Of a stretch of 64,000 nucleotides of DNA, positions 14,049-64,000 are shown one piece after another. Source of the DNA: Methanosarcina mazei S-6 (lineage in GTDB: Archaea > Halobacteriota > Methanosarcinia > Methanosarcinales > Methanosarcinaceae); NCBI RefSeq assembly GCF_000970205.1, contig NZ_CP009512.1, positions 124,001 through 188,000 on the forward strand, given 5' to 3'. Made by a program: the position numbers and the translations under genes. The notes beneath the pieces were generated by a model. The model had not been told where the DNA came from. It searched no databases and saw only the letters and a list, made by a program, of their open reading frames with translations. Numbering within the stretch: position 1 is the first letter of the stretch; the number at the start of each line of letters is the position of its first letter.

Positions 14049-14906
14049 TTACTTTTTTCTTTTAATTACCTGTAAACATCCGAATCCTGCCAGGGCTCCG
14101 GCAAGCAGATAAAAGAAATTGGAGGCCTGGTTGTTGTAATGTCCCTGATTTTTTTGCTCTTTTTCAAGCCCTTTTGAAGGGACTTCTCCTGCAATTGCAG
14201 CCTCAGAATTATCTTCGTCCCATGAACTTTCAGCCAGGTAAATGCTGCGTTTTTCCTCATTTTCCACGTTCACAGGTTCAGAGGTTTTTTCTTTTGCATC
14301 AAGTATGATTTCCCTTTCCGAATTTCCCACTCTGACCTCAAGCTTGCCTGAAGGAACCGACTCCGTTCTGTATATATAATTGAATTTTCCGTCTTTTCCA
14401 GCTTTCAATTTCTGGACTGATGTAACCTTCAGGTTAACACCCGAGGCTCCTTCTTCTGCCGCGCCTTCTACCCTTATCTTATACTTTCCAGGAGATACCC
14501 CGGAAAAGGACACGGTAGCGGTCCCATCTTCCGCCCGGGTAGCTTCTGTTTTTGAGAGAACCATTTTCATTTTTACTTTAAGGCTCTCTACTCCTTCTGT
14601 CCTTATAGTTAAGAGATTATTAAAATTGAGAACCTCGATGTTTTCTAACTCGTAAGTGTACTCTCCAAGGTAAACTGGAATTGTCTTTTCAAAAGAAATT
14701 GAAACTCCCACCTCTTCTTCAGGTGAGGCAAGTCCGCTGATTATTATTGTATCCCCTTTCTCCGGGTTTTCAGGGGTTACTCCCCACTCTACTATCTCAG
14801 CATTTGCAGAATGAGTCAGACACCCGAAAAAGAGAGAAAGTGTGATTAATAAGCAGAAAAGGAGCTTTAATCCAGTCCTGTTCAATTTGAGCAGCTCGGA
14901 TCCCAT
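14049..14906 (-). CDS. Secreted, C-terminally anchored surface protein
   Basis: 285 residues from the ATG at 14906, chosen because GGGAGGG lies 5 nt upstream; a longer frame starts at 14966. Signal peptide ~1-37 ending SANA. The mature part is beta-rich, opening with E-W-x-V-T-P-E-N-P-x-K-G-D-T, a pattern shared with the paralogues at 20284 and 52144. A short acidic linker leads to a C-terminal membrane helix (FFYLLAGALAGFGCL) and basic tail KRKK. It is last in a run DUF1616-CPBP-this gene. Function unknown; a wall-associated adhesin or structural role is inference. Confidence 0.8.
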   Translation of the reverse strand: MGSELLKLNRTGLKLLFCLLITLSLFFGCLTHSANAEIVEWGVTPENPEKGDTIIISGLASPEEEVGVSISFEKTIPVYLGEYTYELENIEVLNFNNLLTIRTEGVESLKVKMKMVLSKTEATRAEDGTATVSFSGVSPGKYKIRVEGAAEEGASGVNLKVTSVQKLKAGKDGKFNYIYRTESVPSGKLEVRVGNSEREIILDAKEKTSEPVNVENEEKRSIYLAESSWDEDNSEAAIAGEVPSKGLEKEQKNQGHYNNQASNFFYLLAGALAGFGCLQVIKRKK

Positions 14907-14999
14907 AAATTCCCTCCCCGGTTTAACCTTCGCCAGTTTGTTTAATTTGTATAATCTGCTCAGCACGGCTTTTTTTATTTTCTCAACCGGCTTCTATTT

Positions 15000-15875
15000 T
15001 TATACCAGACCCAGTCCCGGACCCAGGTGCGGAATTATCCCGAATAAGAATATATTTATGAAACCGTGAATCATTACAACGAGAGGAAGGCTTTTCGTTC
15101 TGTAAAAGAAATACCCGAGAATACCTCCTGCAAGAAAAGTATATACTATTTCGTAAAAAGTACCATAACTCGAGTGCATTACCCCAAACAGAAGACTTGC
15201 AAGCAGGACTCCTCCTGCAGGTCCTAAAAACTCTTCCAGCCTTGTCTGGATAATTCCCCTGAAAATGAGTTCTTCAATCAGGCCTACTATAAAAATCATT
15301 ATAATTGTAAGTTGAAGAAGGTTAAAAAATGAAAGGTCCGGGATAAGCGGTCTTGTCTGTACGATCAAATACTCCGCCTCTGCAAAAATCAAACCTGCGA
15401 GCAGAGAAAAAGGCAGATAAAGCCCCATTTTCCTGAGCAAATCCATTTTTCCTTCTTTTGGAATTTCCTGATACACAGATACAATTGTTATAGGGATTGT
15501 CATGGGCAAATACATGAATACGAATGAGTAAATATTGGCTTCAAAGAATATAGGCATTGAAAGGTTTACCAGCCGAAGAACTGGCAGGAGTATTAATGCC
15601 TGGTAAACCTTGCGTGTCTCCAGTTTTTTTGAGGCTATTATTGAAAGTGAAAGGATGATAAGAAGCAGTGTATAGGTGGCAGCGGCTTCTTTTATTCTTC
15701 CGGTAAATATCAGCAACTCGGCAAAGGCGATAGCAATAACAGGAGCTCCTGCAGAAAATATCTTTTGTAAATATCCGGTTTTTTCACTGGTCTGTATTTT
15801 GAACATTTTCCCAAACTCCGGCAAAGAGATCTGCCCTGCCTCACGTTCAGAAGAAGGATAGTCTGAAGACGCCAT
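15000..15875 (-). CDS. CPBP-family intramembrane glutamic protease
   Basis: 291 residues, about eight membrane segments. All catalytic-type motifs of the CPBP (Abi/Rce1-like) family are present: E201-E202-x3-R206, F230-x3-H234 and H270-x3-N274. Such proteins cleave substrates within the membrane (Rce1 type) or give bacteriocin immunity in some bacteria. It lies 2 nt downstream of a DUF1616 gene and just upstream of a surface-protein gene. The same numbering of catalytic residues occurs in the 62463 copy. Confidence 0.9.
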   Translation of the reverse strand: MASSDYPSSEREAGQISLPEFGKMFKIQTSEKTGYLQKIFSAGAPVIAIAFAELLIFTGRIKEAAATYTLLLIILSLSIIASKKLETRKVYQALILLPVLRLVNLSMPIFFEANIYSFVFMYLPMTIPITIVSVYQEIPKEGKMDLLRKMGLYLPFSLLAGLIFAEAEYLIVQTRPLIPDLSFFNLLQLTIIMIFIVGLIEELIFRGIIQTRLEEFLGPAGGVLLASLLFGVMHSSYGTFYEIVYTFLAGGILGYFFYRTKSLPLVVMIHGFINIFLFGIIPHLGPGLGLV

Positions 15876-15877
15876 CT

Positions 15878-16765
15878 TCAGGTCTCCTTTGTGACATTTA
15901 TCCAGAGGTGCGTATTCCTGTAAGGTATACTCTTTTCGGTTTCGTTAAAAAGCAGAAACTCCAGTTTCATGTTATTCCCCTCAACAGACGGGGTAAAAGT
16001 GACTGGCTCTTCCAATGATTCGTTGTGTCCAAGGCTGATGTATTTCTGGTCTTCTGGAAGGGGCAGGGAGTGATTTTCGAGCCTGACTTCCATTGTATAA
16101 TCCACGTTTCTGTGCTCATGGTTCTTTACCCCTACAATAACCGTTCCGCTGTTTCCCTGTGTGTATTCTGTCGGGTAGTTCTCAGCCACCCTATCAGGAC
16201 CCAGGATGTAAAATTCAGTGAATGGCTCTTCTCCTCTGGGATTTCCTATGACATACGCAAGGCTGCCAAGGGAAGCCAGTATGGAAATTATCAGCAAGGC
16301 TGCAAAGGCTTTGCTGGTCCCGTATCCGATCTCTTCAAGGATTTCTGTTTTCAGTGTGGAGGTAAAAGTTTCACCTGTAATATTGAAAGCTTCAGTTTCA
16401 GGTAACCTGGATCTTCTATAGTATGCTGCCCCACAGCTGAGAAGAGTAAAAGCTGAAAGTCCTGCGAGTACAGGAATTTCCCTGATCCCCCAGGAAGTAT
16501 AGTTCATTCCAAATCCCATAAGCGGGGTTATTGCGATACTTAACCCTAAAGAGAGAAGTGCTCTTTCAATTCCTTCCAGATCCTTTTTTGCAGGCAAAAG
16601 AGCTGCGGTCAGTGCATATCCCGGCAGGAATAGAACCAGAAGGAGTCCGAGGACTGTGCGCAGAAAGCTTCCGCTGAGTGGGGGCACAAGTACAAAGATA
16701 TCAGTAAGGACCACAAGAGCTGCTACAATCAGCAGATCAAGAGAAAATTGTCTGTTCCCGGTCAT
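15878..16765 (-). CDS. DUF1616 membrane protein
   Basis: 295 residues from ATG 16765, the same length as the 25836 paralogue; a GTG three codons upstream is possible. Four helices (~10-30, ~33-55, ~68-88, ~95-115: LLLVLFLPGYALTAALLPAK, LSLGLSIAITPLMGFGMNYT) form the DUF1616 core. A fifth helix (~150-172) leads to an extracellular beta domain starting FTEFYILGP with NHEHRNVDYTMEVRLEN. Function unknown; always paired here with a CPBP protease. Confidence 0.87.
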   Translation of the reverse strand: MTGNRQFSLDLLIVAALVVLTDIFVLVPPLSGSFLRTVLGLLLVLFLPGYALTAALLPAKKDLEGIERALLSLGLSIAITPLMGFGMNYTSWGIREIPVLAGLSAFTLLSCGAAYYRRSRLPETEAFNITGETFTSTLKTEILEEIGYGTSKAFAALLIISILASLGSLAYVIGNPRGEEPFTEFYILGPDRVAENYPTEYTQGNSGTVIVGVKNHEHRNVDYTMEVRLENHSLPLPEDQKYISLGHNESLEEPVTFTPSVEGNNMKLEFLLFNETEKSIPYRNTHLWINVTKET

Positions 16766-16774
16766 TTTTATCAC

Positions 16775-18289: not shown

Positions 18290-20191
18290 TCACGTTTTCT
18301 TTTCAGAATTTTCGTCTTCACTCTTCTCAGCTGTTCTTTTCTTTATAATTGCTCCTATTGCAATAATCACAAGGGCCCCCAACAAGAAGCTGGCAATTTT
18401 CAATCCTGAATTCCCGTCTTCCACAGGAGACGTATCAGATCCCATGGCTATTTCTGAATTGCCCTGCTGTTTTTCGTCAGAAATTGAATGGTCTTCATCT
18501 CCTCCTGTTTTTTCTTCAATCAGGAGGATGTTCTTGCTCGCTACAATTGCAAAGGGAGAGAAACTCGTTGTTTCGGCTTCGAAATAAATATATTCGTCAT
18601 CTTCGCCTGTTTTTTCCGTTTTAAGAGGGTTCCACTGGTCTTCGGTGTAATGCTGAAGGACTATTGTATCCGTATCAATGTGGTTTTCATCTATCCATTC
18701 TTTGCTCACCTTGAAACCCACTATAGCATCCTTTATATTTTTCGAGCTCGATAACTTCCCGTCTCCTACCTGGATATTGATATATTTGTAAACTTCCCCT
18801 TCAGGTTCCTCAGTAACTTTTGAGGACTTTCCTTTCAATTCCTCAACAAAAGCCGTTATTCTGCCTGCTGTCTTCCGGGAGTAAAACTCAATATAACCTA
18901 CAGGAGTGGCTGCATTTTTGAAATAGAACTTTACCTTTTTGCCATTTGACACAAACTGCTGGCAGGAATCTTTCTTTTTGATATTTTTCTCAGGCTCGGT
19001 AAAGTCTTCTTTATCTTTCTTATCATCACTCTTTGAGCTTCCTTTTGGTTTAATTTCTACTTCCGTTTGATTAAGGCCTACAAGTCCTTTTTCAGGGCTG
19101 TATGCGCCCACAAGGAGGTAATAACATCCTACAGGCAGATCAAATGCGGTAAGCGACAGTTTATCCTGGCCGACTTCTCCTATTGCTATCGCACCTTTTC
19201 CTTCTCCTATAAGGGTCTGAATTTCTGTCTGGAGCTCATTCTTTGTCAATTTTGACCTGTAATTTGAGGAGTTGATATCAAATTCTTCAATAAGGTCCAC
19301 TTCATTAACTATGACTGAAGTTCCGGCTTTCGTGCCATTTGAGTTTATTTCTATGTTTGCTTTATATGCCTGCTCTTTTATGAGCACAGCCGCGTATGTG
19401 CAATCATTCCCGGCAGCTCCTTCCAGTGACATGCTTATGTCAAGGTCTTTTCCTTTTACTATACTGGAAGGGGACGAAATACACAGTTTATGTTCTGTAA
19501 CTACAAAGGCTGTTGAAGAAAGGACTGTCAGACTTCTATCCTGATTCTGCTGGACCATAACTATGCAGTACTGTCCTGCATCAAGAAGTCCCAGGTTATA
19601 GTCTGATATATCCCCGCATTCGTCAAGTTTAATAGAGTATTTTTTGTATTCTTCACCCGCGCTTTCTTCGAAAAGAGTATTTAAGTTCCTGATATCTCCT
19701 GCCAGGAAAGAATCAAGAAGCTCGTGTGCACAACCTGAAGTTAATTTGATCAGGTAAATATCCACTGTTTCGTTTTCAAGAGCTGGCTCTCCGTAGAAAG
19801 ACATCTCCACTTTTTCAGTCGGGAGAAAAATCGGATGAGTGGTATAGGACCTGGTTGAAGGGTATGTTATGGTATAACTTTCTTCTTCACATTTGTTCAG
19901 AGCCCCTTTTGCTCCTCCATATTCCATGTGTTTAGGACCGTTATATGTGAGTTTCATCGGTGTAGGAAGTTGAATCCTTGTGCCTTCATTCGGGCACCCC
20001 ATTACAATCCAGTTCCCTTCTGCCGGGTCACTGGTGTGGTCCAGAAAATAGACCACTTTATCAGTAAAATTCAAATTAGCAATTGTCTCTGTCTCTTCAC
20101 AGCATGCCACTGTCGGCGCTGAGGATGCCATTACCGGCGTTGAGGTTAAGACGAGTATTGCCAGTATAAGTATTAATTGACTTTTTCTCAA
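18290..20191 (-). CDS. TIGR04279-like surface protein with PGF-pre-PGF domain
   Basis: 633 residues. Signal peptide 1-22 (ILILAILVLTSTPVMA). The N-terminal ~370 residues match the 50338-51777 protein (VVYFLDHTSDPAEGNWI, LGLLDAGQYCIVMVQQNQD, NELQTEIQTLIGEGKGAI, DLPVGCYYLLVGAYSPEKG); I recall this as TIGR04279. Residues ~405-555 (VKFYFKNAATPVGYIEF ... SFSPFAIVA) fit the archaeal PGF-pre-PGF domain. A C-terminal membrane helix (IASFLLGALVIIAIGAII) and charged tail end it; the Pro-Gly-Phe tripeptide of archaeosortase substrates is not seen. Exported and anchored; function unknown. Confidence 0.85.
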   Translation of the reverse strand: MRKSQLILILAILVLTSTPVMASSAPTVACCEETETIANLNFTDKVVYFLDHTSDPAEGNWIVMGCPNEGTRIQLPTPMKLTYNGPKHMEYGGAKGALNKCEEESYTITYPSTRSYTTHPIFLPTEKVEMSFYGEPALENETVDIYLIKLTSGCAHELLDSFLAGDIRNLNTLFEESAGEEYKKYSIKLDECGDISDYNLGLLDAGQYCIVMVQQNQDRSLTVLSSTAFVVTEHKLCISSPSSIVKGKDLDISMSLEGAAGNDCTYAAVLIKEQAYKANIEINSNGTKAGTSVIVNEVDLIEEFDINSSNYRSKLTKNELQTEIQTLIGEGKGAIAIGEVGQDKLSLTAFDLPVGCYYLLVGAYSPEKGLVGLNQTEVEIKPKGSSKSDDKKDKEDFTEPEKNIKKKDSCQQFVSNGKKVKFYFKNAATPVGYIEFYSRKTAGRITAFVEELKGKSSKVTEEPEGEVYKYINIQVGDGKLSSSKNIKDAIVGFKVSKEWIDENHIDTDTIVLQHYTEDQWNPLKTEKTGEDDEYIYFEAETTSFSPFAIVASKNILLIEEKTGGDEDHSISDEKQQGNSEIAMGSDTSPVEDGNSGLKIASFLLGALVIIAIGAIIKKRTAEKSEDENSEKKT

Positions 20192-20283: not shown

Positions 20284-21177
20284 TTATTTTCTCTTTGAAT
20301 ACAGAATAAGAATTAATAATGCTGCTACCATACCTCCCAGCATGTAAACCGTATCCACGGGAAGTCCTGATTTTTCAACAGGCTGAGGTTTCACAGGCTG
20401 AGACTCATGAACTTCTTCATGTTCTACGTTTCCACTGCCCTGATCCGAGTTCAAGACTGCTTCAGTATTATTTTCCATTTTTTCCCGGATTTCCGATGAA
20501 TTCTCTTCCGTGACAGTTTCTATTTCCTCTAATGGATAGGCAGGTGTTATAGCTGAGGTTTTTCCCTTGAGGGTTACTTTTCGAGTAGTGCCTCCAACAC
20601 TTATCTTAAAGTCTCCCGGGGGGACTGCTTTTGTATTATAAGAATAACTGAAGTCCCCGTCTGAATCTGCTTTTATCCTCTGAACAGCAGTAATTTTCAG
20701 GTTCACTGTTGAATCTCCATTTTTAGCGTCTCCATCCATTTTTATCTGATAGGTTCCTGGAGGGACACTTGACTGCGTTACAGTTGCGACGCTACCGGAA
20801 GCGTCTGAGCTTTTGGTTATCCAGATTAGCATTTTTACTCTGACATTGAGGTTTCTGGCATCACTTGCCTGTACTGTAAAGCGGTTATTGAACCCATCCG
20901 GAATTTTGACGTCTTCGAGTATGTACTCGTACTCCCCTCCGGATGCCTGAACATCCTTTTCAAAGCTTACCTGTATTTCAACCTCCTCTTCCGGAGAAGC
21001 GCTTCCCTTGATTCTAAGGGTGTCTCCAAGAGTGGGGTTCTCGGGGGATATTTCCCAGCTGTTAACTGCGGCAGCTGCAGGTAAAATTGTCAGTAGAGCC
21101 AGAATCAAAACTGAAAAAGAGACAGTTATAAAGAGATGTTCTTTTAGCCTTTTATGGGGATGAGCTGATTTTATCAC
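20284..21177 (-). CDS. Secreted, C-terminally anchored surface protein
   Basis: 297 residues, GTG start with AAAGGAG 8-9 nt upstream. Signal peptide ~15-38 (FSVLILALLTILPAAAA). The mature part begins NSWEISPENPTLGDTLRIKG, closely matching the 52144 paralogue and more distantly the 14049 one, followed by VSFEKDV, NRFTVQASDARNLNVRVKM and PPGTYQIKMDG. A Glu/Gln-rich spacer and a membrane anchor VYMLGGMVAALLILILYSKRK-type end follow. It faces the small Ser-rich gene at 21788 across a 610-bp divergent spacer. Function unknown. Confidence 0.82.
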   Translation of the reverse strand: MIKSAHPHKRLKEHLFITVSFSVLILALLTILPAAAAVNSWEISPENPTLGDTLRIKGSASPEEEVEIQVSFEKDVQASGGEYEYILEDVKIPDGFNNRFTVQASDARNLNVRVKMLIWITKSSDASGSVATVTQSSVPPGTYQIKMDGDAKNGDSTVNLKITAVQRIKADSDGDFSYSYNTKAVPPGDFKISVGGTTRKVTLKGKTSAITPAYPLEEIETVTEENSSEIREKMENNTEAVLNSDQGSGNVEHEEVHESQPVKPQPVEKSGLPVDTVYMLGGMVAALLILILYSKRK

Positions 21178-21787: not shown

Positions 21788-22051
21788 ATGCTGTTAAGCA
21801 TAATTTCATCAAGTGCTATTTCCTCGAGTGCAATTTCCTCAAGTGCAATCTCTATGGTTACAAGTCCCGGGATCCCTCAATATGGTGCTGCGGTGGTTGT
21901 AGGGCTCATAAGCCTTCTTTCTTTGAAGGAGATCCTTTCAGCATCCGAGCACTGGAACAGATCACTGGACAGTTCTTTTAATATGACAATTCTGCCTTTG
22001 CTGTTCAGCTTTGCTGCAATTGTCGTTTACAAAGTAACCGGAGTAATTTAA
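21788..22051 (+). CDS. Small Ser-rich two-helix membrane protein
   Basis: 87 residues from ATG 21788, which follows GGGAGGT by 6 nt and gives exactly the length of the 23337 paralogue; an ORF start at 21749 is rejected. Residues 5-22 are a Ser-Ser-Ser-Ala-Ile pentapeptide repeat, then TSPGIPQYG, helix 1 (~32-48, GAAVVVGLISLLSLKEIL), a polar loop with HWN and helix 2 (~66-86, ILPLLFSFAAIVVYKVTGV). No family recognised. Three paralogues occur in this window, two of them convergent with a CPBP-DUF1616 pair. Confidence 0.8.
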   Translation: MLLSIISSSAISSSAISSSAISMVTSPGIPQYGAAVVVGLISLLSLKEILSASEHWNRSLDSSFNMTILPLLFSFAAIVVYKVTGVI

Positions 22052-23336
22052 ATTCCGCATTTCCGGAATCATTCTCTTTTTTGCCGCATCAGACAGGTTT
22101 CGTGCAACTTTGCACTATTATTTTTTTAATACTTTCTGATTTATTTCAGTCACTTTTTAGCTATTTTTAAATTTTCGCGTCTTTCTGTCATTATTTTTTC
22201 TGTGTATCAAAATAAGAAAAGACCGTTTAACATTAAAGCTGAACAGAATAAATAAACTGTAAAGAAAGTGACAACTCCAAGACAAACCAACATTTTAATT
22301 AATAATTAAAAGTAAAGGGCAAATAAGAGGAAAAATAACTGGAGAATATCCGGATAGAAAAAGTTGAAGTTAAAGTTGAATTTAACTTTCGAATAATGAA
22401 TTAGAGGATCGAATAAATTAAGTTGTTCAGGTAGATAATATCTCAAAAAATTTCAATTTTTTTTGTTTGGTAAACATAATATTATTTGATTGTGAAACTT
22501 GATTGTGAAACTTGATTGTGAAACTTGATTGTGAACTTACTTCTCTATTTCGATAAACCCTATCCATGACAAATTATTTTCCAGTTTACACTTTATTACT
22601 TTTTTCTTTTTCTATCTTTTTTATTTATTGTTTTATATTCTTAATCTCCACTATTTTTACAAAATCTTTTGCAAAACTTTTTATAGGGCATCTTTCCGTA
22701 CACGAATATTTTCTATAATGTTTCATGCCAGTTTACTCCTGAAGCCCTTTAAAATTTTTCTGTTACCTTAATTTCTTCTTTTTTGCATGATCTTTTTCTG
22801 CCTCAGAATTACGGGCTTTCCTTTTTCCCTGTCTATTATAAAATCTCCTGTCCTGGATATTAAGTAGATAATCATGAGGAGACTGAGAATATAGTCAGGC
22901 AAATACTGGCTATATATGTTTATTTTTTAGTGGCTGTTAGCAGGGATATTTATCTGTCTTTTATACAGTTTCACTGTTCATTTTTTTACATCTGCTCCTT
23001 GATTAATCATGTCAATTACAGCCTATTTTTTTCAGGTAAACAGGTTTTCTATTCCAATAACCTCTCCCTCTGCAATGTATTACGTGCTGGAGATAGGACC
23101 GCTCATAAGCCTGATTCTAATATTTTCCTGTTATTAATTTTAAAACCGTGTTCAATGAATCCGGGAGGACAATAAAGGCATCTACCCGCTATTAAAATTT
23201 AGGAACTTGGAAAAAGTGTTTTATAGTATGTTGTATTATTATACCAATGATCTAAGATTATGTCAGTAGTCTATTATTATATCAATGATTCTCCAGTATC
23301 CGGGGTATATGCTTTAATGTTTAAAGGGGTGTCTTT
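22052..23336. other. 1.3-kb AT-rich spacer between two small-protein genes
   Basis: No convincing gene. It contains the 13-bp tandem repeat at 22488-22535, a promoter-like copy at ~22672-22712, and an open frame 22930-23175 whose translation has no family signature or ribosome site and is treated as chance. Confidence 0.5.
22488..22535. repeat. 13-bp tandem repeat
   Basis: Three full copies and one partial copy of gattgtgaaactt, identical to one another. Located mid-spacer, far from both flanking genes. Confidence 0.9.
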
Positions 23337-23600
23337 ATGCTCTTAAGTATAGTTTCAACCAGTGCTATTTCCTCAAGCGCTATCTCTTCAAGTGTAATTT
23401 CCATGGTCACAACCCCCGGTCTTCCTCAATATGGGTCTGCTGTAGTTGTCGGGCTGATTTCCCTTCTTTCCTTGAAGGAAGTTCTTTCCGCATCCAAATA
23501 CTGGAATAGACGACTTAATAACTCTTTTAATTTGCCAATTATTCCTTTACTGTGCAGTTTTGCTGCGATTGTCGTTTTTAAGGTTGCTACAATCCTATGA
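23337..23600 (+). CDS. Small Ser-rich two-helix membrane protein
   Basis: 87 residues, about 70% like the 21788 protein by eye: Ser/Ala/Ile N-terminus, TTPGLPQYGSAVVVGLISLLSLKEVLSAS, YWNRRLNNSFN, and a C-terminal helix IPLLCSFAAIVVFKVATIL. AAGGGGTG lies 5 nt upstream. It converges on the CPBP fusion gene ending at 23932, leaving 331 bp; the 61905 copy has a 312-bp spacing to its CPBP gene. Substrate or partner of that protease is inference only. Confidence 0.8.
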   Translation: MLLSIVSTSAISSSAISSSVISMVTTPGLPQYGSAVVVGLISLLSLKEVLSASKYWNRRLNNSFNLPIIPLLCSFAAIVVFKVATIL

Positions 23601-23931
23601 GATTATTACTTCTCTTTATTACTTCTCTTGAAATTACCGGCTCTTTTTTGAAAAAAAGTTTTTTTTCATCTTATCTTTTTTATTACTTTCTCATTGCTTC
23701 CTGTCGTCAGTATGCTCTAATTTTTCTTTTATCTCTTAAAAAGGGGTTTTCCATTTTTGTTTAATTCATGATATCAGGTTTTCTTTCAGGAATATTATGG
23801 TTTTTTCGAAATAGTAGAGAAAGGAGATCTGAAAAATAAAGAATATAAGAAAAGAAAAATGGATCGGGAAGAAAACCCAGAGAAAATTTTAAAAAATTTA
23901 TTGAATTTTAATTTGGTTTTGTATGAATTGT
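23601..23931. other. Convergent spacer between small protein and CPBP gene
   Basis: 331 bp, T-rich near the small gene (aagttttttttcat) and A-rich near the protease gene, consistent with terminators for both strands. No ORF. Confidence 0.45.
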
Positions 23932-25329
23932 TTAGAGTCCTGGTAAGATATTTAGCTGGTGGGGCAGGATCCCGAAGAGGAAAACGTTAACAAAACCGTG
24001 AAGGACCGCAATAAAAGGCAAGCTCCTTGTTTTGTAGAAAGCGAGTCCCATGATAAGCCCTACAAAACCCGTATAGAGAATTTCCTGAAAAGTGCCGTAC
24101 CCTGAGTGCATCAGCCCGAACATAAGGCTTGTAATCAACAGGGCTTCCCGGACGGTGAGAGCTTTTTCGAGCCTGCTTTGCAGGATTGACCTGAAAATCA
24201 GTTCTTCAACAAGCCCCACGAAAAAAACCATTATAAAGGTAAGCTTAAGAAGATTTACAAAAGTCAGGTCCGGAATCAGGTATCCTGACCGGATTGTAAG
24301 GTATTCCCCAAATCCGAGTAAAAAACCCAGAGGAACTGCAATAAGCATGTAAGGCACGAAATTCTTCATAGTTATGCCTATCTGCTCAAGGGAATCACGC
24401 TGGTGAAGTATAATAATTATCACAGGAATTGCAAGGGGTCCGTAGACAAACATGAAGGTGTAAAGGGTAGTTTCAAAAAATATCGGCATTGAAAGGTTAA
24501 TAAGCCTGAGTACGGGCAGAAGCATCAATGCCTGATATATCCTGTGTACCTCCGGATCTTTTAAAAATATGTCTGAAAGAGAGAGGGAGATAACGATCCC
24601 TATATGTACCCAGACAGCTGCACCCATCCTGCCTGAAAAGATCAGAAGTTCCGCAATTGTTATGCCCAGGACAGGAAGTGCCGTAAGAAGCCTGAGCCGT
24701 TTGGCTTTGAATTCTTCCTGACTATTTTCCTTAATATTTTCCTTAATATTTTCCTGAATATTTTCCTGAATATTTTCCTGACTATTTTCCTGAATATTTT
24801 CCTGAACATTTTTCTGAACATTCTGGACACCCCGGACATTCTCCTGAATGTTCTGAATCTTCTGGGCGTCCTTAATATTTTCCTGAATTCTCTGAACGTC
24901 CTGACCCTTCTCCATGCCAGATTCTTCAGGCCCTGTTATTTTCCTGATTCTGATCCGGGGGAGTCCTTTTATATATTTTTTTGTAACCTCCGGATTTCCA
25001 GAAGTTATGTGCAAATACCCTATAAGAATCAGAACTGCTGCCCCGATTCCTCCTGCGGTATATATGATATCTACATACTGCTCGATTTTCTGAATTGGGT
25101 CGGGATCTTCATGCAGAACCGATGCAGATACGGAGTTTTCTGTTTCTCCCGAAACCTCTGAATATATCTGTTCTGAAAGATGCCCTGTATCTGTTGAAGG
25201 GGATAATTCCAGGCTGCTTCCTGGTGCGGCATGTGCAGAAATTGCCAGCAGGGTCAGAGTAAGGACTGAAACGATAACCTGAATATTCAGTTTTTTTTGC
25301 TTATTGTGATAATTAGTTGGTTTTCGCAC
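23932..25329 (-). CDS. CPBP intramembrane protease fused to a surface-protein remnant
   Basis: 465 residues in two parts. Residues 1-120: a signal peptide (~15-35, VIVSVLTLTLLAISAHA), an acidic segment, and a membrane helix VDIIYTAGGIGAAVLILIGY that resembles the C-terminal anchor of the 20284 surface protein (VDTVYMLGGMVAALLILILY); the beta domain between is missing. A Gln/Glu/Asn/Ile repeat (~135-200) links to the CPBP domain with E375-E376-x3-R380, H408 and H444-x3-N448 all intact. It follows a DUF1616 gene after 506 bp. The fusion ties the surface-protein and protease families together. Function unknown. Confidence 0.86.
   Translation of the reverse strand: MRKPTNYHNKQKKLNIQVIVSVLTLTLLAISAHAAPGSSLELSPSTDTGHLSEQIYSEVSGETENSVSASVLHEDPDPIQKIEQYVDIIYTAGGIGAAVLILIGYLHITSGNPEVTKKYIKGLPRIRIRKITGPEESGMEKGQDVQRIQENIKDAQKIQNIQENVRGVQNVQKNVQENIQENSQENIQENIQENIKENIKENSQEEFKAKRLRLLTALPVLGITIAELLIFSGRMGAAVWVHIGIVISLSLSDIFLKDPEVHRIYQALMLLPVLRLINLSMPIFFETTLYTFMFVYGPLAIPVIIIILHQRDSLEQIGITMKNFVPYMLIAVPLGFLLGFGEYLTIRSGYLIPDLTFVNLLKLTFIMVFFVGLVEELIFRSILQSRLEKALTVREALLITSLMFGLMHSGYGTFQEILYTGFVGLIMGLAFYKTRSLPFIAVLHGFVNVFLFGILPHQLNILPGL
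24718..24840. repeat. 12-bp coding repeat (Asn-Ile-Gln-Glu) inside the CPBP fusion gene
   Basis: About ten imperfect copies of ttttcctgaata (minus strand encodes Q-E-N-I). Copy-number change keeps frame, so linker length may vary between strains. Confidence 0.85.
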
Positions 25330-25835
25330 GGAAATTGCTCCTCTTTCAAACAGGGCAGTCCAGATTTATTTTGTGGACATCTTATTAAATGTTTTTTAGT
25401 TGTTTTCCTTATTAAATCTTGGGGATGTTATACGACTTTCATATTATACAGGTTTTTATTATAAAATCTTATATGAAGTTTTGTAGATAGTTAGATGTTT
25501 TAATTTCCAGGGTCCAAACTTAAAGAGTCTAAACTTAAAGGGTCTAAACTTAAAGGGTCTAAACTTAAAGGGTCTAAACTTAAAACTGGAGCAAAAAAGT
25601 TTTGAGTCCGTAAAAATATTACAGACCCGTTTTCCATAAGAACTTTTTCAGGATTCCGAATAATCGAATTTTCAGAAGAAACCCGATAAATAAAACCCGG
25701 AGCCTGAATCCGGTATTTCGGATTTGAACAAAATGGCACAGATCAAAAATAAGATTCCGGGCTCCAATCCTACTTTTTCGAGTTATGAAATTTTCTGTAT
25801 CAGTTGTATCAGTTGTATCAGGTGTATCAGTTGTA
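25330..25835. other. Repeat-bearing spacer between DUF1616 and CPBP genes
   Basis: 506 bp. It contains the 15-bp array at 25510-25584 and, at about 25797-25841, five copies of a 9-bp unit (gtatcagtt) running up to the DUF1616 stop. A minus-strand frame across it (LSLDP repeats) is a by-product of the minisatellite. Confidence 0.6.
25510..25584. repeat. Five tandem copies of a 15-bp repeat
   Basis: Unit gggtctaaacttaaa at 25510, 25525, 25540, 25555 and 25570; the last three are identical and the first two carry single changes. Intergenic. Confidence 0.92.
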
Positions 25836-26723
25836 TCAGGTCCCTGTTGAGTTTACATCTATCCAGAGGTGGAGGTCCCGGTAGGACGTGTTCTTATCTG
25901 TCTCGTTAAAGAGCAGGAACTCAAGTTTCATGTTTTTCCCTTCTTCCGGAGGAATGAACGTTAGAGATTTTTCCCAGGTCTCGTTATGTGCGAGTGATAC
26001 CTGCTGCATATTTCCAGGAATTGGAAGGGATTTATTTTCAAGCCTGACGTCCAGTGTGTAGTTTACAGGCCTGTACTCGTGGTTTACGACCCCTATAATT
26101 ACTTTTCCGCTATCTCCGAGTGTGTAGTTTGTCGGGTAATTATCAGCCATTCCTTCAGGCCCGAGGATATAGAACTCCGTGAAGTGTTCCCCTTCTTTTG
26201 GGGTAATAATCACATACACGAGGGTTGTAACGGAGAGGAGAATGGAAATAACCAGAATGATTGTAAGGGTCCTGTCAAGTCCTGGTTCGGGCTTTTCCAG
26301 AATTTCTGCTTTTATTTCGAGCAGGGTTTTCCTGAAGGGAACCTCAAAGGCATCAGCTTCGGGAAGTTTTGCCCTCCTTATGTAGGCAAGCCCGCACATT
26401 ATAATTGTGAACACTGACAGGCTTATAAGGATTGGCAGAAGCCTTATTCCCCACGGGGTATAGTTAAGCCCAAGACCTATCAGGGGCACGACCGCAATAC
26501 TCAGCCCGAAGGAAAGGGCTGTCCTTTCAATGCCGTCAAGGTCTGATTTCGCGGGAAAAAGTGCAGCTATCAGGGCATATCCTGGCAGGAAAAGTACAAG
26601 GGGCAGGCCGAGGATATTGCGGAACACAGTTTCACTTAATCCGGGCATGAGCACAAAGAGATCGGTAAGGAGCACAAGCCCTATAACGGTCAAGAGGTCT
26701 GAAGGAATTTTCTTTCCGGTCAT
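25836..26723 (-). CDS. DUF1616 membrane protein
   Basis: 295 residues, closely related to the 15878 protein: helices at ~8-28, ~32-52 (LGLPLVLFLPGYALIAALFP), ~67-87 (ALSFGLSIAVVPLIGLGLNY), ~93-112 and ~150-170, then an external beta domain FTEFYILGPEGMADNYPTNYT ... NHEYRPVNYTLDVRLENKSL with several potential N-glycosylation sequons (N-x-S/T). Upstream of the CPBP fusion gene. Function unknown. Confidence 0.87.
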   Translation of the reverse strand: MTGKKIPSDLLTVIGLVLLTDLFVLMPGLSETVFRNILGLPLVLFLPGYALIAALFPAKSDLDGIERTALSFGLSIAVVPLIGLGLNYTPWGIRLLPILISLSVFTIIMCGLAYIRRAKLPEADAFEVPFRKTLLEIKAEILEKPEPGLDRTLTIILVISILLSVTTLVYVIITPKEGEHFTEFYILGPEGMADNYPTNYTLGDSGKVIIGVVNHEYRPVNYTLDVRLENKSLPIPGNMQQVSLAHNETWEKSLTFIPPEEGKNMKLEFLLFNETDKNTSYRDLHLWIDVNSTGT

Positions 26724-27816: not shown

Positions 27817-28785
27817 ATGAGTAACGAACTTCTTATGAGCAGTGCAGAGTATCCGGCTCATCAAGAAAATAAGCGTTTCAGGGGGGCATCCTCTCAAAAT
27901 ATAACTGTAATTCTTCCGGCATGCAATAATGAAGTTTCAATCGGAAGCCTTATCCTTCTCACCAGGCTCTATGCCGACAATGTAATTGTTGTCGATGACG
28001 GCAGCACTGACAGGACAGTCGAAATCTCCAGGAAAGCCGGAGCCCATGTAATTGTTAACGGAGCCTGCAAAGGAAAAGTCGGATCCCTCAGGACCGGCTT
28101 CACAGCCGCAGCTGACCTGGGAGCAGATATTATAATAACTATGGACCCGGACGGCCAGCACAACCCTGCAGATATTCCCAGAATCGTAGCCCCAATAATT
28201 AAAGGCGATGCAGAAATGGTAAACGGCAGCCGTTATCTGAATTATCCCGGCAAAAATTCTTCCGTTTACAGCCGCACAGGCAAGACCATGCAGGACATTT
28301 CTGCAAATGTTAACTTCAACCTCAAAATTACCGATACTCAGAGCGGTTTTCGCGCCTATGCAGCCTCTACAAAGAGCATTTTCCGCTTCAGCGGCAAAAA
28401 AACAGCCATAGAAAACGAAATGCTTGCCGACGCCGGCAGGTCAGGCATCCGCATTGCTGAAGTCGAGATCGGGGCCTGCACCAGCGTCAGAGCTTCGATC
28501 CGGGACCCGGTAAAGTACATGATGGGAGCCCTGAGGACCGTGGCTGAAGATATAGAAGCCAACAAGCCTCTGTACTTCTATTCCGTGCCAGGCTTTGCTC
28601 TTGCGACATGCGGCTTCTTTATGGGTTTCAAATTTATGGCAGATTATTTCTTCGGAATCGCAAGCCTCAACTTCGGGCACACATTCCTTATGGTCTTCCT
28701 TGCCCTTGCAGGCGCGTACATGACTCTCAGGGGAATAATCGCCCACTCGATGGCAGGAGCGGCCAGACAGACCGATTCTACCTGA
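27817..28785 (+). CDS. GT2 glycosyltransferase, divergent DPM1-like
   Basis: 322 residues. GT2 fold from ~25: ITVILPACNNEVSIGS, VVDDGSTDRT and the DxD-type MDPDGQHNP, then TQSGFRAYAAST and two C-terminal membrane helices (~252-275, ~283-308). Relatives transfer sugar from a nucleotide to dolichyl phosphate. Compared with the 29012 and 44404 paralogues it lost conserved residues: NKGKG(A/M)A is CKGKVGS, DSDG is DPDG, and VRYDVDGST is replaced by CTSVRASIRD. It may use another donor or be less active. Ribosome site GGGGT 7 nt before ATG. Confidence 0.88.
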   Translation: MSNELLMSSAEYPAHQENKRFRGASSQNITVILPACNNEVSIGSLILLTRLYADNVIVVDDGSTDRTVEISRKAGAHVIVNGACKGKVGSLRTGFTAAADLGADIIITMDPDGQHNPADIPRIVAPIIKGDAEMVNGSRYLNYPGKNSSVYSRTGKTMQDISANVNFNLKITDTQSGFRAYAASTKSIFRFSGKKTAIENEMLADAGRSGIRIAEVEIGACTSVRASIRDPVKYMMGALRTVAEDIEANKPLYFYSVPGFALATCGFFMGFKFMADYFFGIASLNFGHTFLMVFLALAGAYMTLRGIIAHSMAGAARQTDST

Positions 28786-29011: not shown

Positions 29012-29983
29012 ATGAATATAGAAGTGCATATGAGTAAAAGCACCCAGATAATACAAGAAGAACAGGGAGATCCAGGTATAAGAAGCGCAACTCCCCAAAA
29101 TATAACCGTGGTCCTCCCCGCTTTCAACGAGGAAGTCGCCATCGGCAGCATAGTCCTCCTAACGAAGCACTACTGCGACAACGTGATCGTGGTCGACGAC
29201 GGAAGCTCGGACCGCACAGCCGCAATAGCCAGGAGAGCAGGAGCCCACGTAATTGTCCACGAGGCAAATAAAGGCAAAGGAGCAGCCCTCAAGACCGGCT
29301 TCACAGCCGCAGCAGACCTTGGTGCAGATGTGATTGTTACCATGGACTCTGACGGGCAGCACAACCCTGCCGAAATCCCCAGGCTCGCAGCCCCAATCAT
29401 AGACGGCACGGCAGAGATGGTAAACGGCAGCCGCTACCTGAGCCATAAGGACAAAAATACCCCTATTTACCGCCGCGTCGGGCAGACTATCCTTGATACT
29501 GCCACAAATATGAATTCCGGCCTCAAAATTACAGATTCCCAGAGCGGTTTCCGCGCCTTTGCAGCTTCAACGAAAGACGTTTTCCGGTTCAACGCCAGAG
29601 GCATGGCAATAGAAAGCGAAATGCTTGCCGATGCAGGCAGGTCCGGGTTAAGGATTAAGGAAGTTGAGATCGGGGTAAGATATGACGTTGACGGCTCAAC
29701 CGTAAGCCCGATAGAACATGGTTTAGGCGTCCTTGTTATGATTTTAAAAGATATTGAATTTAACAAGCCTCTTTATTATTTTACAGTTCCTGGAATTTCC
29801 CTTGGATTGGGAGGGCTGTATATGGGTGCTCATTTCCTGCAAATTTTTGTTACAGGTGGAGGCTTGCAGTTCGGGCCTACCATGCTTATGGTTCTCTTTA
29901 TTATTGTAGGGACTTTTATGGCATTGACAGGGATTTTGCTACATTCTGTGTCTGCAATTACAAGGGAAACGAAGGCTGTATAA
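29012..29983 (+). CDS. GT2 glycosyltransferase, dolichyl-phosphate sugar synthase-like
   Basis: 323 residues. A variable ~30-residue leader, then ITVVLPAFNEEVAIGS, VVDDGSSDRT, the NKGKGAALKTGF loop, MDSDGQHNP (metal-binding DxD), NGSRYLSHKDKNTPIYRRVGQ, DSQSGFRAF and VRYDVDGST. Two C-terminal membrane helices. All DPM1-like catalytic residues are present. It likely charges a lipid carrier with a sugar for glycan assembly. The start is preferred over the internal ATG six codons on because GGGGT is spaced 7 nt from it, as in the 27817 paralogue. Confidence 0.93.
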   Translation: MNIEVHMSKSTQIIQEEQGDPGIRSATPQNITVVLPAFNEEVAIGSIVLLTKHYCDNVIVVDDGSSDRTAAIARRAGAHVIVHEANKGKGAALKTGFTAAADLGADVIVTMDSDGQHNPAEIPRLAAPIIDGTAEMVNGSRYLSHKDKNTPIYRRVGQTILDTATNMNSGLKITDSQSGFRAFAASTKDVFRFNARGMAIESEMLADAGRSGLRIKEVEIGVRYDVDGSTVSPIEHGLGVLVMILKDIEFNKPLYYFTVPGISLGLGGLYMGAHFLQIFVTGGGLQFGPTMLMVLFIIVGTFMALTGILLHSVSAITRETKAV

Positions 29984-60949: not shown

Positions 60950-61904
60950 ATCTTTCCCCTTCATATACTTTATATCCGTTCGATAAATTCCAAATTGAAC
61001 AAAGACATACTTAAAATTTTTAATGAATTAGAAAGTATATATTTTATTTTCATGTTCCGAACTTTCTGGTTATCTGATGTTACAGCCTGCCCGGGACATT
61101 TGTTATTTCCTTATTCCCTGTACCCACTCCCTTCAATTTACTAACTATGTGAATTTTTTAGTTTGAATACACTTTATAATTATTTAACTGATTTGGTTTA
61201 TCTGTCAATCCACAGCTTTTTCGATCTTTTTTTGTAATGGTATTTAATTTATCGAAATTATTTGGTACAAATTAACCTTGAAGCTCTTTTAAATTCACAT
61301 CTAATTTTTTATAGTGTATGTATATCTTTAATCACTGTCTTATTCCTTATTGACTTTTTACTTCTATAATAATTGTGGTTTTATTTCTATAATTGCTGTC
61401 TTACTTTTACATGTCTGTCTTGATTCTTTTAGAACAATATGTATAATACTGAATATACACAGTTATAATTTTATATGATAGTAATCCGATTTAAAAATTA
61501 TCTATTAATCTATCAAAAATATTTTTAAGCCCTTCCTGATAAGATCTTACCATTTCTCTGTTAGAAGATTTATATGGATGGGGACTTATGCCAGTAGCTT
61601 GTTGTAAGGGCAATATATTCCACTCATCTTCTGCCTTACATAAAAAAGGTATGTATATTTCATTTTCAAGGAAAAAACTAATAACTATAAAGCTGGATCG
61701 CCCTTGATTTAAAATTTATATATCTACTTTTTTATCCTGCAAAATGGAGCAGGATTTTTTGAAATTAACATCTATTGCTTTCTTTTTTTCATTCTCTTTT
61801 TACGTTCTATTCTTTGAGTTCAGGAGATTAAATGAAGGAGAGTTTTTATATCAGATCGCACATTTGATTCTTTTATACTTCAATCAACTAGAGGAGTTTT
61901 AACT
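60950..61904. other. About 950-bp AT-rich intergenic region
   Basis: No supported gene. It holds the promoter of the sugar-nucleotide run and, at its right end, the leader of the small membrane-protein gene: an 11-codon frame MKESFYIRSHI (61832-61867) and GAGGAG at 61891-61896. No tandem repeat. Confidence 0.45.
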
Positions 61905-62150
61905 ACGCTCAGTTTAATTTCATCAACTTCTGCTTTTTCGGGCGAGCTAACAATGATGACTCCACCTGGAGTCCCTGATGGCGCATCAGTCGCCGTAGCG
62001 GTTTTGCTTGTAATGTTACTTCTCAGAGACATCCTTCCTTTGCTAAAGAACTGGGATGAATCTGTACAAACTTCTTTGAATATGGGGATTCTTCCACTTC
62101 TGTTTTCTTTCGGTGCAGTAGTCCTTTATAAACTCGTAGCTCTCTTCTAA
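61905..62150 (+). CDS. Small Ser-containing two-helix membrane protein, ACG in place of ATG
   Basis: 81 residues if started at ACG 61905. The first in-frame ATG (61953) would give 65 residues but drop a segment LSLISSTSAFSGEL that aligns with the N-termini of the 21788 and 23337 proteins. ACG-CTC-AGT lines up with ATG-CTC-TTA-AGT of the 23337 gene, and GAGGAG lies 8 nt upstream. Then PPGVPDGASVAVAVLLVMLLLRDIL (helix 1), a loop with NWDES, and ILPLLFSFGAVVLYKLVALF (helix 2). Convergent with the CPBP gene. Confidence 0.72.
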   Translation, partial: TLSLISSTSAFSGELTMMTPPGVPDGASVAVAVLLVMLLLRDILPLLKNWDESVQTSLNMGILPLLFSFGAVVLYKLVALF

Positions 62151-62462: not shown

Positions 62463-63320
62463 TTAAAATAGATGGGGAATAACCCCAAAGAGGAAGACAT
62501 TTATGAAGCCGTGTACCATTGTGACAAGAGGGAGGCTTCGGGTTTTGTAGAACATGTATCCTATAATAAAACCTACCAGGAAAGCGTAGAAAATTTCAAC
62601 CATGCTTCCATATCCCGAATGCATCAGCCCGAAGAGGACGCTTGTCACAAGTAAGCCACCCCTGCTTCCAAGGAACATTTCAAGCCTGTTTTGCAAGATG
62701 GATCTGAAAATGATCTCTTCAACAAGACCTACTAAAAAGACCATAACAAGGGTGAGTATCAACAGGCTGATTATTGAGAGATCAGGAACCAGGTAATTTG
62801 TCTCTATTATAAAATATTCTCCTATTCCGAGAAGGAGACCGATAATTATTGAAAGTGGAATATAGGTGCCTATTTTTTTGAAGGTTACCCCAAGTTGTTC
62901 CTGGTTAAATCCCTGATTGGTGAGCGCAACAGTAACTGGAATTGTGAGGAGCCCATAGATAAAGACAAATGAGTAAAGGGTTATCTCATAAAAAGCTGGC
63001 ATTGAGAGATTTACCAGCCGCAGGATTGGCAGCAGGATAAAAGCCTGATAAGTCTTCTGGATCTCTACATTTTTTATATATAGCATGGAAAAACAAAGCC
63101 CAATAAGAAGGACTGCATGGACTTCCATCGCAGGTATGATTTTTCCGGAATATATCAGAAACTCTGCAATTGCGACTAATAATACCGGAATAATAATGTA
63201 GAGCCCTTTGTTTTTTATTTCGGGCTCGGATGCTGACATGTGCGCGTAAGTTCCCCGGTATTCAGGCCTTTGTGCTTCTCTATCAGGTGTTTTTAACTCC
63301 AGATTCTCATAAGTTTCCAT
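62463..63320 (-). CDS. CPBP-family intramembrane glutamic protease
   Basis: 285 residues, aligned without gaps to the 15000 protein through the catalytic region: E201-E202-x3-R206, F230-x3-H234, H270-x3-N274. About eight membrane segments after a ~38-residue charged cytoplasmic N-terminus. Starts 2 nt after the DUF1616 stop, exactly as in the first module. Confidence 0.9.
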   Translation of the reverse strand: METYENLELKTPDREAQRPEYRGTYAHMSASEPEIKNKGLYIIIPVLLVAIAEFLIYSGKIIPAMEVHAVLLIGLCFSMLYIKNVEIQKTYQAFILLPILRLVNLSMPAFYEITLYSFVFIYGLLTIPVTVALTNQGFNQEQLGVTFKKIGTYIPLSIIIGLLLGIGEYFIIETNYLVPDLSIISLLILTLVMVFLVGLVEEIIFRSILQNRLEMFLGSRGGLLVTSVLFGLMHSGYGSMVEIFYAFLVGFIIGYMFYKTRSLPLVTMVHGFINVFLFGVIPHLF

Positions 63321-63322
63321 TT

Positions 63323-64000
63323 TTATGCCTCCCCGATAACATCTATCCAGAGGCGCAGGTCCTCATAAGGTATCTCTTTTTCGGTTTCATTGAAAAGCAG
63401 AAACTGGAGCTCCAGATCTTTTCCTCTTATAGAGGGGGTTATCTCAAGAGGTTCTTCCAGGGTCTTATTGTCTTCAAGCTGTATGTGTTTCAGGTTTTCA
63501 GGCAGAGCCAGTGATTTATTTTCAAGCCTGACATCCAGTGTATAATTTACTGTCCTGTGTTCGTGGTTTGCAATCCCTATAATGACAGTTTCGCTTTTTC
63601 CCTGCACATATTCCATAGTATAATTATCGGCTTTTCCCTCAGGCCCAAGAATATAAAATTCTGTGAATGGGTCATGCTGGTGGGGAAATATGCTTATATA
63701 TGCCGTAGCCCCTGCAAGTGTCAGGAGGGAAATTGCCAGAAAAGCCCTCAGGGTCTTTTCCGTTGAAGATTCCGGTTTTCCCAGGACTTCAACTATGGAA
63801 CTGGCAGATTTTTTGAAAGAAACTTCAAAGGCTTTGTCTTCTGGAAGCTGCTTCCTGCGAATATACGCTCCTGCACATGCCAGGATAATAAATACAGAAA
63901 GGCTTGCGAGAAGAGGCATCTCTCTTATCCCGAATGATGTATTATCAAGTGCAAGTCCTGTAAGAGGTACTATTGCAACACTCATCCCTATGGAAAGTGC
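63323..64000 (-). CDS. DUF1616 membrane protein (5' end outside window)
   Basis: C-terminal ~226 codons of a DUF1616 protein; the frame is still open at 64000, so the ATG at 63985 is not the real start. Visible: IGMSVAIVPLTGLALDNTSFGIREMPLLASLSVF (helices 3-4), a later helix (~residues 80-100 of the visible part) and the external domain FTEFYILGPEGKADNYTMEY ... ANHEHRTVNYTLDVRLENKSL. Third DUF1616 copy in the window. Confidence 0.88.
   Translation of the reverse strand, partial: ALSIGMSVAIVPLTGLALDNTSFGIREMPLLASLSVFIILACAGAYIRRKQLPEDKAFEVSFKKSASSIVEVLGKPESSTEKTLRAFLAISLLTLAGATAYISIFPHQHDPFTEFYILGPEGKADNYTMEYVQGKSETVIIGIANHEHRTVNYTLDVRLENKSLALPENLKHIQLEDNKTLEEPLEITPSIRGKDLELQFLLFNETEKEIPYEDLRLWIDVIGEA

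Follow-up and report, generated by a model that had tools for sequence, protein, structure and literature searches.

A family of tiny two-helix membrane proteins co-occurs and co-descends with one subfamily of CPBP intramembrane proteases across the phylum, which makes it a directly testable candidate partner of these enzymes. The interpretation that we place first, and to which we give an even chance, is a two-gene envelope module consisting of the CPBP intramembrane protease and the tiny protein as its dedicated membrane partner and substrate. To our knowledge, very few CPBP proteases of prokaryotes have a known natural substrate, and Methanosarcina has the genetic tools for such work.

Gene layout of the window and the encoded proteins

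The window, i.e. the whole stretch of 64,000 nucleotides analysed here, contains three DUF1616-CPBP pairs, as had been proposed in a preliminary description of this DNA, and all three were found by Pfam (PF07760/PF02517) (Table 1). The distances reported there for the two tiny genes converging on a CPBP gene, 331 and 312 bp, turned out to be exact, the latter being the distance between the 3' ends of copy C and of the CPBP gene of pair 3. The third tiny gene, said to lie 1.3 kb away and divergent from a surface-protein gene, was located as well: the 3' end of copy A lies 1285 bp before copy B, and copy A is divergent from the gene at 20284-21177. Copies A and B, which share 77% identity over 257 nt, constitute a tandem duplication; a decayed extra copy between them was considered and rejected, there being no profile match. 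Pair 1 (14-16.8 kb) has no tiny gene but a surface-protein gene next to it instead, whose product resembles, by eye in its sequence and C-terminal anchor, the product of 20284-21177, which itself belongs to a family repeatedly found next to tiny genes. The whole genome (4.14 Mb) contains six copies of the tiny family and three DUF1616-CPBP pairs; elsewhere, DUF1616 occurs in one longer protein and one remnant. A MAG labelled Syntrophomonadaceae (L007, JAHDSE010000051.1) contains this locus as well, and its tiny protein is 100% identical to that of copy B; the contig is probably mis-binned Methanosarcina.

Table 1 Tiny, CPBP, DUF1616 and neighbouring genes in the window (positions are those of the window).
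Feature	Position	Strand	Remarks
Ig-like surface protein with C-terminal anchor	14049..14966	-	Last gene of a DUF1616-CPBP-surface gene run
CPBP protease, pair 1	15000..15875	-	Pfam; paralogue type usually without adjacent tiny gene
DUF1616 protein, pair 1	15878..16774	-	Pfam
Surface protein, TIGR04279 + PGF-pre-PGF domain	18290..20191	-	NCBIfam E=3e-124 and 6e-60
Ig-like surface protein with C-terminal membrane anchor	20284..21177	-	Divergent from tiny A
Tiny two-helix protein A	21788..22051	+	87 aa; Ser-rich N-terminus; ATG start; SD GGGAGGT
Tiny two-helix protein B	23337..23600	+	87 aa; 3' end 331 bp from CPBP 3' end, convergent
CPBP/Rce1-like glutamic intramembrane protease, pair 2	23932..25329	-	465 aa; PF02517 E=1.3e-18
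DUF1616 protein, pair 2	25836..26723	-	PF07760 E=2e-108
AglJ-like GT2 glycosyltransferase, surface-glycan context	27817..28785	+	TIGR04182 E=6e-34, below equivalog cut-off
AglJ-like GT2 glycosyltransferase, surface-glycan context	29012..29983	+	TIGR04182 E=2e-44, below equivalog cut-off
Tiny two-helix protein C	61905..62150	+	81 aa from ACG at homologous start; SD AGAGGAG 61892-61898; convergent with CPBP of pair 3
CPBP protease, pair 3	62463..63320	-	Whole-genome Pfam search
DUF1616 protein, pair 3	63323..64000	-	Extends past window end (genome 187341-188168); whole-genome Pfam search

The CPBP proteins of the first two pairs scored 67.5 and 73 bits against PF02517, compared to a gathering score of 22.4. 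The protein of pair 2 carries the motifs EExxxR (E375, E376, R380), FxxxH (F404, H408) and HxxxN (H444, N448); among 42 CPBP relatives, E375, E376, R380, F404 and N448 are invariant, and H408 and H444 are kept in at least 90%. Since the catalytic residues are conserved, these CPBP proteins are probably active proteases. Among their best relatives in NCBIfam are the sorting proteases MrtJ, MrtS and Mrt core, all below cut-off (41 vs 75, 36-42 vs 130 and 28 vs 100 bits, respectively). PADLOC gave a marginal LeoBC match for the 465-aa CPBP protein (E 0.0018) and nothing beyond it, and a known defence system was rejected; the tiny proteins, DUF1616 and the CPBP protein of pair 3 had no PADLOC match. 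The CPBP protein of pair 2 is extended at its N-terminus by a long segment with Glu/Asn-rich repeats (window 24660-24900; NIQENIQENIKEN), which pairs 1 and 3 lack, and the 506-bp gap between its gene and the DUF1616 gene contains short tandem repeats at 25510-25590 (TTAAAGGGTCTAAAC). The model of the DUF1616 protein of pair 2 (pLDDT 84) consists of an N-terminal helical membrane part and a CARDB/Ig-like C-terminal domain, the CARDB-like domain being the sole informative part in a Foldseek search (matches to 2kl6/3idu). Among the publications searched, DUF1616 appears in one, as an N-glycosylated Haloferax protein, and none treats DUF1616 together with CPBP.

The tiny proteins have a Ser- or Thr-rich tail with in-frame repeats and a length of about 10 to 75 residues, a conserved helix 1, often after GLP[EQ]YG, a loop of the type KE[ILV]LSAS...W with basic residues, and a helix 2. 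In the AlphaFold2 model of copy B, the helices comprise residues 33-51 and 58-86 (block pLDDT 83-91) and the tail is of low confidence (residues 11-23); by the positive-inside rule, the tail would lie outside. The tiny genes are under purifying selection, with a pN/pS of about 0.27 (0.26-0.40 in three groups), and are thus protein-coding. The family is undescribed; copies A and B gave 0 matches in Pfam and NCBIfam, and 71 members gave sporadic weak single matches to Pfam only. Its profile matched 129 of the 186 genomes (20 of 27 genera) surveyed in the order and, in a sample of the phylum, 103 of 393 (35 of 136 genera), the genomes being partly fragmented and the start positions of the tiny proteins set by alignment. 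A divergent subfamily (GNSFPGSG.CFVYTDFG) was found with no CPBP nearby in five loci (L020, L026, L028, L031 and L041), which contain the gene for UDP-glucose dehydrogenase besides others for nucleotide sugars or glycans.

Linkage of tiny and CPBP genes and their genomic context

Loci were fetched around most of the listed tiny matches, picked regardless of CPBP, which gave 148 copies in the order. Among these listed matches, at least 95 are convergent with a CPBP gene no more than 2.5 kb away, and for at least 52 of them the distance is 400 bp or less. At least three are co-directional just downstream of CPBP, at least one is divergent, and 28, each with 3 kb or more of room, lack a CPBP gene of this subfamily in their vicinity. 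Of the 99 tiny genes with a CPBP neighbour no further than 2.5 kb away, 95 are thus in convergent orientation (P about 1e-51 compared to 1/4, a nominal value as the loci are related). Seen from the protease, a tiny gene lies no more than 2.6 kb away on the 3' side for at least 90 of the best 150 CPBP proteins (84 convergent, 6 co-directional), and those without a tiny neighbour include the pair-1 type, which is present once in several complete Methanosarcina genomes. Per genome, presence agreed in 173 of 186 cases, with both genes in 120, the tiny gene only in 9, CPBP only in 4, all of them weak CPBP matches, and neither in 53 (P 5e-32, again nominal, the genomes being related); both are jointly absent from several genera. 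The tiny genes of the order are thus not found mostly away from CPBP genes, the observation that the preliminary description had named as speaking against it, and the recurrent, undescribed association that it had proposed is strongly supported by these linkage and co-occurrence counts. It had, however, taken the DUF1616-CPBP pair as the partner, of which only the CPBP half held: loci such as L033, L034 and L042 carry CPBP and the tiny gene without DUF1616. DUF1616 is optional, and the constant partner of the tiny gene is the CPBP protease.

The sequence distances of tiny and CPBP proteins correlate with 0.82 (Mantel correlation, 42 pairs), compared to a mean of 0.24 for shuffles of paralogues within genomes, none of which reached 0.82 (0/5000). 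The matched distances show that the two genes duplicated and descended as a unit; they do not prove contact, since linked genes are inherited together in any case. The arrangement was also found in distant families, in which tiny and CPBP genes are either convergent (f6, f9 and f34, with overlapping genes in two of the three f9 loci) or divergent and mostly about 100-300 bp apart (f10). As the orientation differs between families while the pairing is kept, a functional link is favoured, and antisense overlap is disfavoured as the cause of the pairing.

The setting of the tiny-CPBP loci is surface-protein and glycan assembly. Recurrent neighbours in 69 tiny loci of the order, named by Pfam/NCBIfam and otherwise by eye, were DUF1616 (36), AglJ-like glycosyltransferases (23), TIGR04279 proteins (16) and Ig-like surface proteins, the latter in two clusters (18 and 13), together with nucleotide-sugar enzymes. 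In f10, seven of the larger loci contain a full CPBP gene; EpsI is present in all seven and EpsH in six of them, and one f9 locus also has both. These findings tie DUF1616, exosortase and CPBP genes to one archaeal surface-assembly theme. There is no exosortase gene beside the pairs of the window, and the only exosortase-like gene of the genome (3196438-3197232) is about 3 Mb away in coordinates. It lies near the gene of an 807-aa DUF1616 protein and those of two PEF-CTERM-type proteins (L194, genome 3186000-3204000). No common C-terminal sorting motif was found on the neighbouring surface proteins in Methanosarcina, and isolated PGF-like ends were seen elsewhere.

Near-cognate start codons

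Copy C has no ATG, GTG or TTG at its start, the homologous codon behind the sequence AGAGGAG being ACG (61905-61907). In a first count, the homologous start position was ATG in 59 of 77 copies. When 146 copies were scored by codon, SD and motif, ATA, ACG, AGG, ATT or AAG was found at the start of about 34, including copy C, to which this scoring assigned an upstream AGG while the aligned codon is ACG. All five codons are one substitution away from ATG and are mostly preceded, at normal spacing, by an SD of the GGAG/GGGGG class, the strength of which is partly built in because the start choice rewards a strong SD. ACG is present in copy C and in orthologues from at least seven other genomes, and AGG or AAG in several genomes from at least three genera; loci with near-cognate start codons include L017, L024, L025, L034, L036, L072, L101 and L108. 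Since silent differences exceed replacement differences in the N-terminal codons after the near-cognate starts (pN/pS 0.51 and 0.33), this part appears to be translated. In some tiny copies, translation thus seems to begin at a codon which, like AGG, is not among the known start codons as far as we know. For unannotated sORFs of M. mazei (proteins of up to 70 aa), Ribo-seq gave ATG, TTG, GTG and CTG starts (PMC11456600). With the conserved non-AUG starts, AGG and AAG above all, this question of archaeal initiation becomes testable by a reporter construct.

Possible functions and comparison with known systems

Among the roles that the preliminary description had considered for the tiny protein, that of a processed peptide still seems the most probable. 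In the module that we favour, the tiny protein, whose two-helix hairpin is joined to a Ser/Thr-rich tail that is probably extracytoplasmic, would be inserted into the membrane without a signal peptide, with the tail outside and the basic loop inside. The CPBP protease would cut it, most likely at or within helix 1, and thereby release or re-anchor the Ser/Thr-rich peptide at the cell surface, where this peptide may serve the assembly of surface glycoproteins or polysaccharides; DUF1616 would be an optional accessory. We infer in this way the topology, the physical contact of the two proteins, the cleavage and the role of the tiny protein as substrate and not as subunit. The copy ratio fits a substrate, with six tiny genes for three CPBP genes in this genome and tandem tiny copies elsewhere, but GLPEYG before helix 1, which is not kept in f5, f9 and f10, counts against it. 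Counting against the module as such are that convergent genes are not co-transcribed and that there are 28 copies without a CPBP gene nearby despite sufficient room.

Alternatively, the tiny protein could be an uncut regulatory or docking subunit of a complex with CPBP (and DUF1616) that presents surface proteins or lipid-linked glycans, the true substrates being the neighbouring C-terminally anchored surface proteins. The deepest conserved motif of the tiny proteins, KE[ILV]LSAS, is predicted to be cytoplasmic and fits a subunit equally well. The same applies to the one-to-one co-divergence of the paralogues, which follows partly from the linkage itself. The one-to-one copy number that is frequent outside Methanosarcina speaks for a subunit, as do the surface proteins with a membrane helix and a basic tail that recur in the loci. 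A subunit is less easily reconciled with tiny copies outnumbering CPBP genes in this genome, with tandem tiny duplicates beside one CPBP gene, and with orphan tiny genes in glycan loci devoid of CPBP. The substrate is favoured because of the MrtJ/JDVT-CTERM precedent and the EpsH-CAAX protease fusions described below; we give it about half of the total weight and regard the subunit as a lesser, but real, possibility.

A merely structural role of the tiny protein at the surface, unconnected in function with the protease, is rather unlikely; the two genes would then be neighbours only through shared surface-glycan loci. Several of the 28 CPBP-less copies do lie in glycan loci, e.g. the subfamily beside UDP-glucose dehydrogenase, but the adjacency is far tighter than shared membership in a cluster, the orientation is strongly biased inside each lineage, and the two genes agree in presence (173/186) as well as in their joint absence from several genera.

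CPBP proteins have a role in bacteriocin or toxin immunity or maturation in some bacteria, and the preliminary description had considered the tiny protein as a membrane-active peptide accompanied by such a CPBP protein. The weak start codons of many copies would fit a limitation of dose. This reading found no support, however, and we consider it very improbable: the tiny proteins have no PADLOC match, no peptide exporter was seen, tiny and CPBP genes are separate convergent or divergent genes instead of one operon, inheritance is vertical over the phylum, and the genes occur as several chromosomal copies in glycan loci, linked to surface-sorting genes and in part as orphans without adjacent CPBP. 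Antisense control of CPBP by the convergent overlap, with the small frame being secondary, would agree with the close 3' ends, which at certain loci overlap by as much as about 30 bp, but is largely refuted by the divergent arrangement in f10, the gaps of 18 to about 2000 bp and the purifying selection at the protein level (pN/pS 0.26-0.40), and we give it next to no weight.

More tentatively than for the module itself, we suggest that the tiny-CPBP pair may be a new archaeal envelope-processing system based on a CPBP protease and its own two-helix mini-protein with a Ser/Thr-rich ectodomain. Many genes of this mini-protein would be started at ACG, AUA, AUU and even AGG/AAG, codons shared among species and preceded by very strong SD sequences, probably for a low dose of the membrane peptide.

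Among known systems, Rce1 (type II CAAX prenyl endopeptidase, MmRce1) shares the PF02517 domain and all catalytic residues with the CPBP proteins described here, but no CAAX box was seen on the tiny protein; a search of the family profile against PDB sequences gave no match at E 0.01. The staphylococcal CPBP envelope proteins LnsB and SpdC (PMC7387801) are likewise involved in envelope modification, LnsB working with a partner, but both lack the catalytic residues that are kept here. Myxosortase MrtX with its MYXO-CTERM targets (PMC11980579) has the CPBP fold, EExxxR and HxxxN and a role in the envelope, but acts on dozens of targets with a C-terminal Cys motif, and the CPBP proteins of this study match the Mrt core model weakly. 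The tiny protein does not have the Cys motif, single C-terminal helix and basic tail of a myxosortase-type target. Because the cut-offs are missed and the target architecture differs, the tiny-CPBP pair cannot be filed as a myxosortase-type system. Exosortase/archaeosortase systems (EpsH, EpsI, PEF/PEP-CTERM) adjoin the tiny-CPBP loci of f10 and one of f9, unlike the pairs of the window, which are without an adjacent exosortase gene, and EpsH-CAAX protease fusions tie both enzyme classes together (PMC1569441). A precedent for a dedicated pair is MrtJ, which forms with its single JDVT-CTERM target a two-gene unit of a CPBP sorting enzyme and a dedicated target (PMC11980579). The pair described here differs in that its CPBP protein falls below the MrtJ cut-off, in that it is archaeal with mostly convergent genes, and in that the tiny protein, with its two helices, lacks both an invariant Cys and a tripartite tag at the C-terminus; in both cases, however, the gene of a CPBP glutamic intramembrane protease adjoins that of one membrane-anchored protein.
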